A stretch of DNA of 64,000 bases from Salinibacterium sp. UTAS2018 (lineage in GTDB: Bacteria > Actinomycetota > Actinomycetes > Actinomycetales > Microbacteriaceae): positions 2,728,001-2,792,000 of the forward strand of contig NZ_CP035375.1 in NCBI RefSeq assembly GCF_004118935.1, in the 5' to 3' direction. How positions within the stretch are numbered: the stretch's first letter is position 1; each line of letters begins with the position of its first letter. The position numbers were made by a program, and so were the translations under genes. The notes under the pieces were generated by a model, which searched no databases, was not told the DNA's origin, and saw only the letters and a list, made by a program, of their open reading frames with translations. Positions 44,253 to 46,541 of this stretch are shown here, in pieces.

Positions 44253-44675
44253 CTAGGCGGGCAGAATTTCTGCCAGTAGCTTCTGGATGCGCGCCTTGAT
44301 GTCGTCACGGATGGGGCGCACGTCTTCGATGCCCTTACCGCGAGGGTCGACGAGTTCCCAGTCCTCGTAGCGCTTGCCGGGGAAGATGGGGCAGACGTCG
44401 CCGCAGCCCATCGTGATGACGACATCCGAGGCCTGCACCTGGTCGGTGGTCATGAGCTGGGGGACCGCCTGGGAGATGTCGATGCCCTCTTCGGCCATCG
44501 CAGCGATGGCGGTGGGGTTGATCTCATTGCCAGGCTCCGAGCCACCCGAACGAACTTCGACAGCACCGTTCGAGAGCGCCGTCATATAGCCGGCGGCCAT
44601 CTGGGAACGACCCGCATTGTGGATGCAGACGAACAGGACGACGGGCTTAGTGGCGGGGGCAGTCTCGGTAGTCAT
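44253..44675 (-). CDS. arsC: Arsenate reductase, LMW-phosphatase type
   Basis: A 140-residue arsenate reductase of the low-molecular-weight tyrosine phosphatase fold. The P-loop CIHNAGRSQMA (CX5R) holds the nucleophilic Cys, and MGCGDVCPIFPGKRYEDWELVDP (given in part) has the two extra Cys of thioredoxin-linked enzymes such as pI258 ArsC. I use the ATG at the complement of 44673-44675; no ribosome site is present, and TATGCT lies six bases before it inside a perfect palindrome. It is downstream of and on the same strand as the ArsR-ArsC fusion. Confidence 0.88.
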   Translation of the reverse strand: MTTETAPATKPVVLFVCIHNAGRSQMAAGYMTALSNGAVEVRSGGSEPGNEINPTAIAAMAEEGIDISQAVPQLMTTDQVQASDVVITMGCGDVCPIFPGKRYEDWELVDPRGKGIEDVRPIRDDIKARIQKLLAEILPA

Positions 44676-44677
44676 AG

Positions 44678-44707
44678 GCAAAGCATAGATGAATATCTAT
44701 GCTTTGC
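44678..44707 (-). promoter_or_regulatory. Perfect palindrome over the arsC promoter
   Basis: GCAAAGCATAGAT (44678-44690) and ATCTATGCTTTGC (44695-44707) are a perfect 13-base inverted repeat around four bases. It starts two bases before the arsC ATG and contains the -10 box TATGCT on the minus strand. The CATAGA...TATG core fits an ArsR-type operator. Confidence 0.65.
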
Positions 44708-44738: not shown

Positions 44739-45788
44739 TCACGCAGCGTTCACCGGCGGCAGCGAGCGAAGCAGCTCGCGCACCCGGGTGTCGATGTCGT
44801 CGCGCACGGCTCGCACGCCATCCATCGCCATGGCGGCGGGGTCGGGGAGTTCCCAATCGAGGTAGCGGCGGCCGGGGTAGATGGGGCACGCATCGCCGCA
44901 GCCCATCGTGATGACGACATCCGCGCCGCGCACGACCTCATCGGTGAGGGGCTTCGGGTATTCGCCATCGACCGAGACGCCGATCTCATCGAGGGCGGCC
45001 ACAATCTTCGGGTTGATTGACTCGGTCGGTTGTGATCCCGCGGTCAGCACGCGAACTCGATCTCCGGCGAGGGAGCGCAGGATGGCAGCGGCCAGCTGGG
45101 AGCGACCGGCATTTTGCACGCACACGAAGAGCACGCTCGTCGGGCGGGTCGCGCCGGGGGTAGTGGCCTCTGCCGCATTCTCCGCTGGCGCGTCGCTGGA
45201 GGCTGGCGCGTCGCTGGATGCTGGTGAGCCTGCGGTCGCTGTGGTGTCGCGGTGAAGCCGAGCCGCTTCCAGTGCCCCCAGGCGGTCGGCCGCGAACCGC
45301 GATGTATGGGACGACAGGTGGCGATCCCTCGGTGCTCCCTGCTGGAGAAGCTCATAACTGCTCGCGACATAACCCGCGATGGTCTCGCGGGAGAAGGTGC
45401 CAGCGAAGCGCAAGGCGAGGTCGCTGCTGATTCGTTCGAGAACGGCAGGGTCGACGCTCACGGGCACGCCATCGCTGGGGGAGCGTTGCACAAAATCAAA
45501 GACATCGGCAAGGCGCGACGGCACGAGGGAGTACCAGACCTGGCGCCCTTCCTGAGTGCTCTGCAGGATGCCGTCAGTTGCCATGATGCGCACGTGGTGG
45601 CTCACGGTGGGCTGGGTGAGGCCGAGACGAGCGGCAAGGTCGGTGACTCCGCGCCGGCCGTCGGTGGCATCCATGAGTAGGCGCAGAATCTGCACTCGGG
45701 TGGGGTCAGCGATCGCACGCATGCTCTGGGCGATGCGTTCGGCTACCGCGCGTTCGCTTTCGGGAGCGGATGACTCGGTCGCAGGCAT
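44739..45788 (-). CDS. ArsR regulator fused to arsenate reductase
   Basis: A 349-residue fusion. In order: ArsR winged helix (about 15-95, IADPTRVQILRLL ... LGLTQPTVSHHVRIM); a helical segment (about 110-175, SSDLALRFAGTFSRETIAGY) like the three-helix bundle found before some actinobacterial ArsC domains; an Ala/Ser/Pro linker with a repeated ASSDAP; and an LMW-phosphatase ArsC domain (about 215-349) with CVQNAGRS and MGCGDACP. The protein has three Cys only, all in the reductase domain. ATG at the complement of 45786-45788 is used; an ATG at 45821 would add 11 residues. Divergent from an aquaporin gene. Similar arsRC fusions are known from other arsenic-resistant actinobacteria. Confidence 0.85.
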   Translation of the reverse strand: MPATESSAPESERAVAERIAQSMRAIADPTRVQILRLLMDATDGRRGVTDLAARLGLTQPTVSHHVRIMATDGILQSTQEGRQVWYSLVPSRLADVFDFVQRSPSDGVPVSVDPAVLERISSDLALRFAGTFSRETIAGYVASSYELLQQGAPRDRHLSSHTSRFAADRLGALEAARLHRDTTATAGSPASSDAPASSDAPAENAAEATTPGATRPTSVLFVCVQNAGRSQLAAAILRSLAGDRVRVLTAGSQPTESINPKIVAALDEIGVSVDGEYPKPLTDEVVRGADVVITMGCGDACPIYPGRRYLDWELPDPAAMAMDGVRAVRDDIDTRVRELLRSLPPVNAA

Positions 45789-45815
45789 GGCACTCAGTCT
45801 AAGCGAGGACACGCG

Positions 45816-45835
45816 ATTCATAGACAGTTATCAAT
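45816..45835. promoter_or_regulatory. Candidate ArsR operator between fusion and aquaporin genes
   Basis: ATTCATA (45816-45822) and TATCAAT (45829-45835) form an imperfect inverted repeat around six bases, overlapping the -35 box of the aquaporin gene. It shares CATAGA with the palindrome at 44678-44707. Confidence 0.45.
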
Positions 45836-45848
45836 GTTTCGGTATGAT
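45821..45848 (+). promoter_or_regulatory. Promoter of the aquaporin gene, leaderless
   Basis: TAGACA (45821-45826) and TATGAT (45843-45848) with 16 bases between; the -10 box ends six bases before the ATG at 45855. Confidence 0.6.
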
Positions 45849-45854
45849 CGCCGA

Positions 45855-46541
45855 ATGACCGCGCCTCGCTCTTTCGCTCTTGCCCGCCGACTGACCGCTG
45901 AATTTATCGGCAGCGCCGGCCTCGCCGCGGTCGTCATCGGTTCCGGTATCGCCGCTCAACAGCTCTCCCCGGGCGATACGGGGCTGCAGCTTTTGGAGAA
46001 TGCCCTCGCGACCGCCTTTGGACTCGGCGTGCTCATCCTCGTCTTCATGACGGTCAGCGGCGCGCACTTCAACCCAGTCGTCTCGATCGTGGATTCGCTC
46101 AGCGGGCTGCGGTCGTGGCGCGATACCGCGTTCTACATCCCGACCCAGATCATCGGATGCATCGCCGGCGCGATCCTCGCCAACCTCATGTTCGCGCAGG
46201 CTGCTGTCACGTTCAGCACGACCGTGCGCCTGACGCCAAGCCACTTTCTCAGCGAGGTCGTCGCTACCGCCGGACTCATCGTCGTGATCTTCGCCCTCGT
46301 GCGAACCGGCCGTGCGAACCTTGCGCCGATCGCTGTGGGCACGTACATCGGCGGCGCGTACTTTTTCACGAGCTCCACGAGCTTCGCCAACCCTGCCATC
46401 ACCATCGGTCGGATGTTCAGCGACACGTTTGCGGGAATCGCCCCCGGCTCGGCCCCCGGCTTCATCGCGGCCCAGCTCATCGGCGCCGCGATCGGTTTCG
46501 GCCTCGTGCGGTGGGTGTTCCCCGAGCGTCGAATCGCGTAA
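45855..46541 (+). CDS. Aquaporin-family channel of the arsenic locus
   Basis: MIP-family channel of 228 residues and six membrane helices. The first half-helix motif is NPV (HFNPVVSIVD) in place of NPA; the second is NPA (FANPAITIGRMF). The Arg that normally follows the second NPA in the selectivity filter is replaced by Ile, which should widen the pore. Such channels occur in arsenic gene clusters of rhizobia (AqpS) and actinobacteria, where they let arsenite or methylated arsenicals pass. ATG 45855 is chosen by promoter spacing over an ATG at 45834. Divergent from the ArsR-ArsC fusion. Confidence 0.85.
   Translation: MTAPRSFALARRLTAEFIGSAGLAAVVIGSGIAAQQLSPGDTGLQLLENALATAFGLGVLILVFMTVSGAHFNPVVSIVDSLSGLRSWRDTAFYIPTQIIGCIAGAILANLMFAQAAVTFSTTVRLTPSHFLSEVVATAGLIVVIFALVRTGRANLAPIAVGTYIGGAYFFTSSTSFANPAITIGRMFSDTFAGIAPGSAPGFIAAQLIGAAIGFGLVRWVFPERRIA

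Follow-up and report, generated by a model that had tools for sequence, protein, structure and literature searches.

ArsRC2 of Microbacterium sp. A33 reportedly represses its operon, a result attributed to Achour-Rokbani and to the year 2010. Fusions of ArsR to ArsC are named in L. ferriphilum, Microbacterium and Sinorhizobium (PMC6205960, in excerpt), and two actinobacterial clusters of them, C4 and C7, have already been drawn in excerpts of PMC6514093, which also name C88, C162 and C166 of C. glutamicum ArsC1' as catalytic cysteines. ArsR proteins that respond to As(III) carry three cysteines at varying places, described as site types 1, 2 and 3 in the relevant passages of PMC11868830. A regulator fused to another arsenic enzyme, ArsRM of Brevundimonas, was placed on its own promoter by docking (PMC10190100, in excerpt).

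The gene described here, arsRC, lies in a 64,000-nucleotide stretch of the Salinibacterium sp. UTAS2018 genome (the window, whose positions are used throughout unless a locus is named). As in the described fusions, ArsR and ArsC share a single reading frame, which contains the following parts:

44739..45788, minus strand: arsRC, ArsR, three-helix domain and ArsC in 349 amino acids (reading frame and Pfam)
45477..45749, minus strand: ArsR winged-helix domain, residues 14-104, without cysteine (Pfam HTH_5, alignments, model pLDDT)
45270..45440, minus strand: three-helix domain PF21234, residues 117-173, which is the N-terminal domain of CgArsC1'-type reductases (Pfam, 3t38 alignment)
45135..45278, minus strand: linker of 48 residues (171-218), rich in Ala, Ser and Thr, with an internal 18-base repeat
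44769..45134, minus strand: ArsC domain, residues 219-340, with the P-loop CVQNAGRS and GCGDACP (Pfam LMWPc)
45120..45122, minus strand: codon of Cys223, the P-loop nucleophile, aligned with C88 of CgArsC1'
44898..44900, minus strand: codon of Cys297, aligned with C162 of CgArsC1'
44886..44888, minus strand: codon of Cys301, aligned with C166 of CgArsC1'

Pfam matched HTH_5 at residues 28-76, PF21234 at 117-173 and LMWPc at 219-340, and the N-terminal part scored as an ArsR/SmtB protein with both PF01022 (44.8 bits, cut-off 22) and NF033788 (76.9, cut-off 55). The remainder is, by sequence, a reductase of the CgArsC1' kind: PF21234 is followed by LMWPc, the cysteine triad is spaced by 74 and 4, and Cys223, Cys297 and Cys301 align with residues 88, 162 and 166 of 3t38, the C. 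glutamicum ArsC1' structure (E 1e-50). In a monomer structure prediction with a mean pLDDT of 87.2, which does not bear on the dimer, confidence was 94-97 across ArsR residues 31-90 and fell to 53-60 in the linker (191-210); a fold search of the model against the PDB returned 3t38 as the top match (E 6.1e-14). All three domains are under purifying selection, with dN/dS of 0.02-0.11 between the window and three same-genus copies, despite the adjoining second arsC. Among 1017 matching plasmid records, 5 cover at least 80% of the fusion protein, at about 40% identity.

The linker is longer in the window, at 48 residues, than in 36 relatives (14-22) or in three further same-genus copies (22, 22 and 26). 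Within its codons (45135-45278) is an 18-base repeat whose copies differ at one base and which encodes SPASSDAPASSDAP. An initial reading of the locus, made from sequence alone, had suggested that the helical bundle between the two halves could relay a signal to the regulator. This idea was not supported, as the bundle is the reductase's own domain, also present in unfused CgArsC1', and is followed by 48 residues of low-confidence linker. Because the linker is long and of low confidence, tight coupling is disfavoured, transfer through a rigid bundle is doubtful and a change in the state of the dimer is the likelier route.

The same reading had held that the ArsR half lacks cysteine and that the only three cysteines of the protein are the redox set of ArsC, and both statements were borne out: residues 1-222 of the 349-residue frame contain none, and residues 223, 297 and 301 align with the catalytic cysteines of CgArsC1'. 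Consequently the ArsR domain does not have the three As(III)-binding cysteines of As(III)-responsive ArsRs, nor does the ArsR half have any of the cysteine sites described for them in the excerpts of PMC11868830; in alignments, G47 and T49 occupy the positions of both cysteines of the CVC motif. In a single protein this absence is weak evidence, since the nine neighbouring genes encode only 18 cysteines in 3157 residues and a stretch of 104 residues free of cysteine has a probability of about 0.55. Conservation among relatives is the evidence, and the window protein was compared with ArsR-ArsC reading frames from 80 wider stretches, taken only from the best-scoring places found when 199 genomes from the family and 297 from the order were scanned.

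The 80 stretches and the window together yielded 80 such frames, of which 37 are of the window's kind, with an ArsR lacking CVC (class A), 39 keep the CVC motif in ArsR (class B) and four fit neither class. Two of these four, L146 and L147, are fusions inside the class B clade without CVC, and the other two, in L091 and L106, belong as partner genes to the split systems described below. Counted as loci, class A comprises 39, among them L091, which is split, and L108, where a broken fusion was described piecewise; class B comprises 42, and four of these (L106, L123, L141 and L144) also contain split forms. Several loci found in different scans are apparently from the same genomes (L245/L084, L268/L103, L253/L210, L298/L140 and L300/L110). 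The ArsR domain was free of cysteine in 36 of the 37 class A fusions, the exception being L095 with a single cysteine at the first CVC position; cysteines of L088 and L094 that lie upstream of the predicted start were left out of this count. The P-loop cysteine and GCGDxCP were kept in all 37. Since class B retains CVC, fusion by itself does not remove the As(III) site. On these data the window protein is a genuine variant of a known fusion, and a conserved one.

The two CVC-lacking fusions inside the CVC clade (L146:5367-7568 and L147:5522-6601) are natural tests of sensing models. In the broken class A fusion (L108:7142-7793), ArsR and PF21234-ArsC lie in different frames, and that genome has a second match at G028:C1:830875. 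A P-loop signature specific to the fusions was considered and rejected, as the Gln at Cys+2 shared by 33 of 37 class A fusions is likewise present in 11 of 14 PF21234-ArsC proteins that are not fused.

Upstream of arsRC and of the separate arsC that follows it, copies of a candidate operator, CATAGA-N6-TCTATG, were found. These copies and the adjoining genes are:

45819..45836, no strand: candidate operator copy CATAGACAGTTATCAATG, one mismatch, between arsRC and the aquaporin gene
44684..44701, no strand: perfect candidate operator copy CATAGATGAATATCTATG, before the separate arsC
45786..45803, minus strand: CTTAGACTGAGTGCCATG, degenerate copy with three mismatches (read from sequence)
44253..44675, minus strand: separate arsC, 140 amino acids, LMWPc, with CIHNAGRS and GCGDVCP
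45834..46541, plus strand: divergent MIP (aquaporin-type) channel gene (Pfam PF00230)

The last three bases of the copy at 45819..45836 are the ATG at 45834, and its other strand ends in the ATG at 45821; CTTAGACTGAGTGCCATG has within it TAGACT, a -10-like element whose end lies 7 bases ahead of the ATG at 45788. The start of arsRC may be 45821 rather than 45788, because 36 of 37 fusions have an in-frame ATG as the last three bases of their best-matching operator copy. This start, 33 bases upstream, would give a protein of 360 amino acids whose 11 added residues contain no cysteine.

The window alone proves little about the operator, as 9 of 100 shuffled versions of it gave at least two matches when up to two mismatches were allowed. 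Across the window's genome, at one mismatch, the pattern and its reversed control each occurred 3 times per strand, with no excess, and the third genome site, at 2913052, looks like a chance match. The class A loci (39, 497 kb), however, held 38 perfect copies vs 0 for the reversed control, and 67 vs 0 when one mismatch was allowed. A copy with at most one mismatch was present at 33 of the 37 class A fusion starts, a TAGA(C/T)(T/A) -10-like element lay inside the site at 31 of the 37, and a second copy usually preceded the next arsC. The class B loci (42, 531 kb) contained one perfect copy (in L123, a split form) and 5 at one mismatch; at two mismatches there were 26 copies vs 4 for the control. 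The idea that the operator is unique to the cysteine-free class was rejected because some CVC ArsR loci carry a copy too: at up to one mismatch it was found in 5 of 10 CVC ArsR loci of the family (L213-L222), and also in 4 of 42 unlinked CxC loci (L282, L296, L299 and L305). The copies in CVC loci suggest that the site predates the loss of the cysteines.

Taken together, the domains, the cysteine pattern, the conservation of the operator, the linkage and the neighbouring genes, all of them read from sequence, lead us to propose that the arsRC product is a repressor that has shifted its arsenic sensing to the reductase domain, a reading to which we give a probability of roughly 55%. The cysteine-free ArsR domain would bind CATAGA-N6-TCTATG at the starts of arsRC and the aquaporin gene as well as before the next arsC. 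The ArsR domain itself appears to offer no arsenic site. The signal would come in through the thioredoxin-type ArsC domain fused to it, with the three cysteines of ArsC changing state upon the arrival of arsenic. Our first choice for this change would be a Cys297-Cys301 disulfide formed at the end of arsenate reduction; alternatively, the triad may hold As(III), or bound arsenate may serve as the signalling state. The changed ArsC state would alter the dimer so that DNA is released, and thioredoxin would reset the protein. We infer repression, release by the ArsC state and reset. ArsC as the sensor is the most economical explanation because the protein has no other thiol, the triad is kept, selection is purifying, and regulator and reductase stay together even where they are encoded in separate frames.

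The kept triad could also be read as a plain As(III) trap, in which the thiolates bind arsenite without turnover and the protein is an ordinary arsenite-responsive repressor with its site in another domain. The three cysteines in the ArsC of every class A member would provide such a site, the ArsRs in the excerpts of PMC11868830 use three cysteines at differing places, and bound As(III) is possible because PDB entry 1lju, a related ArsC structure, is titled as a complex with arsenite. In the enzyme scheme excerpted from PMC6514093, however, As(III) is released, and L146, whose ArsR is cysteine-free as well, lacks the third ArsC cysteine (GCGDAVP). A disulfide sensor would be expected to retain that residue, and within its clade L146 therefore also argues against any strict requirement for a disulfide. 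We consider the trap unlikely, though a serious contender; its share lies inside that of the reading in which sensing has moved to ArsC, and about a quarter of the whole is left for readings not listed here.

The association between regulator and reductase can also be followed where the two are not fused. In a split form, a separate cysteine-free ArsR gene is followed by an adjoining or overlapping gene that encodes an N-terminal domain, PF21234 and ArsC. This arrangement was found in ten genomes (L091, L106, L123, L141, L144 and L208-L212) and in five further loci (L252, which is Agromyces lapidis, L253, L275, L285 and L290), L253 and L210 being apparently one genome. Pfam detected a helix-turn-helix in the N-terminal domain of 5 of 12 scanned partners at E 0.01 (L091, L106, L208, L209 and L211), in 2 of the 12 above the curated cut-off. 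A profile built from 13 partner N-terminal domains aligned with that of the class A ArsRs over 90 columns (probability 98, E 1.6e-13); the QPTVSHH recognition stretch is not preserved in them, while L290 retains most of it. These comparisons support an ArsR origin for the N-terminal domain, which would be a degenerate ArsR domain, and it looks as if regulator and reductase are held together in the split form through an ArsR-type dimer.

The strictness of the link was examined in three scans. An ArsR profile run on 398 genomes of the family gave 27 short-frame rows, and all 7 that are cysteine-free precede a PF21234-ArsC gene vs none of the 20 with CxC. Among the best places in 396 genomes of the phylum, 26 loci were not fusions (L152-L178 without L175); 25 of these have CxC and one, L165, a single cysteine. 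A further scan, from which 80 loci were kept, gave 42 unlinked CxC, 11 fused cysteine-free, 5 split cysteine-free, 4 with one or two cysteines and 18 unlinked cysteine-free ArsRs. Of the 18, L229 was set aside since its contig ends after ArsR-PF21234, inside a fusion. The other 17 (17 of 80 loci), all from Micromonosporaceae, have a cysteine-free ArsR without a fused ArsC partner and read SVS for CVC (SVT in L273), with an unfused ArsC frame within the fetched stretch in 4 of the 17. These paralogues stand alone at L249, L254, L255, L258 and 13 more loci. The rule that a cysteine-free ArsR occurs only with ArsC was therefore rejected: the cysteines can be lost without a fused ArsC. Every cysteine-free case in the window's lineage that could be read to its end has kept the ArsC link.

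The Micromonosporaceae proteins are the main support for a reading in which the ArsR half senses without cysteine, the cue being arsenate, phosphate, a different ligand or a protein partner, and ArsC is a tethered enzyme only. These ArsRs stand elsewhere in the tree, however, and have no operator copy at up to one mismatch, and the intact link in the window's own lineage also speaks against cysteine-independent sensing, which we regard as improbable. The proposal that sensing runs via the reductase half, also made in the sequence-only reading, survives in part. The cysteine-free ArsR, the triad in 37 of 37, the ArsC linkage and the conserved operator favour it, whereas a strict link did not hold. 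The 17 partnerless ArsRs and the occurrence of the operator at some CVC loci count against a shift of sensing to ArsC.

In the ArsR tree, class A falls outside the group that holds the CVC ArsRs. A tree built without the cysteine columns, after removal of near-duplicates (255 to 193 rows), requires five changes between CxC and cysteine-free; these were placed at class A together with the split forms, at L146, at L147, at L290 and at the Micromonosporaceae group. We place four of the five in ArsC-linked ArsRs. The ArsR trees, short and with weak support, give no direction for these changes; the wide spread of CxC suggests that cysteines were lost rather than gained. In the ArsC-domain tree, class A (with the split partners, support 86) and class B (support 99) form separate clades.

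A different difficulty arises from the neighbours, as an unfused CVC ArsR is present in 19 of the 39 class A loci and could sense As(III) there; many unfused CVC ArsRs in the studied loci also carry an N-terminal CC pair. With such a protein at hand, the fusion might carry no arsenic signal at all and act as a constitutive autorepressor, induction being left to another regulator or to a heterodimer with the CVC ArsR. Within class A, however, none of the 19 CVC ArsRs has a CATAGA copy upstream at up to one mismatch, and 14 of the 19 have instead an ATCGA or ATTGA palindrome (a count made without a shuffled control). In the window's genome, moreover, the best match to a CVC ArsR query was the fusion itself, and the other ArsR-like proteins found are without CVC. 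We consider a signal-free fusion very improbable. One of these other ArsR-like proteins (G000:C1:190290-190538; L003, L312) has CC pairs near its C-terminal end.

The two classes also differ in the genes that surround them. MIP genes were found by profile in 27 of 39 class A loci (replacing an earlier clustering count of 20 of 39) vs 7 of 42 class B loci (Fisher p 1.7e-6), and Acr3 in 1 of 39 vs 31 of 42 (p 4.7e-12). As the genomes are related, their independence is overstated and both p-values are too small, yet the contrast remains large. By eye, the window's channel (45834-46541) has NPV as its first pore motif and NPA as its second. In S. meliloti, AqpS confers sensitivity to external arsenite and resistance to arsenite made internally by ArsC (PMC6205960, in excerpt). 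A regulator that answers to arsenate reduction, and not to arsenite, would suit an aquaporin-type channel, because keeping the channel open would pay only as long as arsenite is produced in the cell. This leads to a broader and distinctly more tentative picture, possible but on balance doubtful: a regulator class in which reductase turnover (arsenate flux and thioredoxin supply), not arsenite concentration, would switch the operon, exit through the aquaporin would replace the Acr3 pump, and the ArsR of the split form would be signalled by pairing with the degenerate ArsR domain of the reductase.

In the As(III)-responsive ArsRs of the PMC11868830 excerpts, the regulator's own cysteines detect the toxic product. 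Regulators that follow the state of the detoxifying enzyme would, if true, form a class of one-component enzyme-sensors for arsenate itself and could yield parts for an arsenate-specific biosensor. The exact candidate operator and the natural variants (fused with CVC, fused without it, and split) separate the parts of such a system. If the ArsC domain binds As(III) plainly, the protein would be another case of a moved metal site, still unusual in that the site is the active site of an enzyme. A shift of sensing to the enzyme is plausible but unproven. In open-licence PMC literature, no report was found of a cysteine-free ArsR or of its fusion to a reductase, which lends weak support to the novelty of the class.

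Compared with described systems, the window protein is closest to the actinobacterial ArsR-ArsC fusions, which likewise join ArsR to a thioredoxin-type ArsC in ars clusters; the excerpted fusion accounts of PMC6514093 and PMC6205960 do not mention missing ArsR cysteines, the CATAGA operator or a split form. C. glutamicum ArsC1' (3t38) shares the three-helix N-terminal domain, the ArsC domain and the cysteine spacing, but has no ArsR domain and about 7 residues between the matched parts, compared with the window's 48. C. glutamicum ArsR1/2, with a type 3 As(III) site, are winged-helix ArsRs as in the window, whereas the window ArsR lacks both the N-terminal cysteine and the CVC cysteines (PMC11868830, in excerpt). 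Brevundimonas ArsRM is also a fusion of a regulator to an arsenic enzyme, although the enzyme differs, being a methyltransferase (passages of PMC10190100). Lastly, Paracoccus ArsR1/2, which unlike the window ArsR carry their own As(III)-binding cysteines, are released from DNA by diamide or by arsenite in the excerpts of PMC9137774 and thus provide a precedent for redox release.
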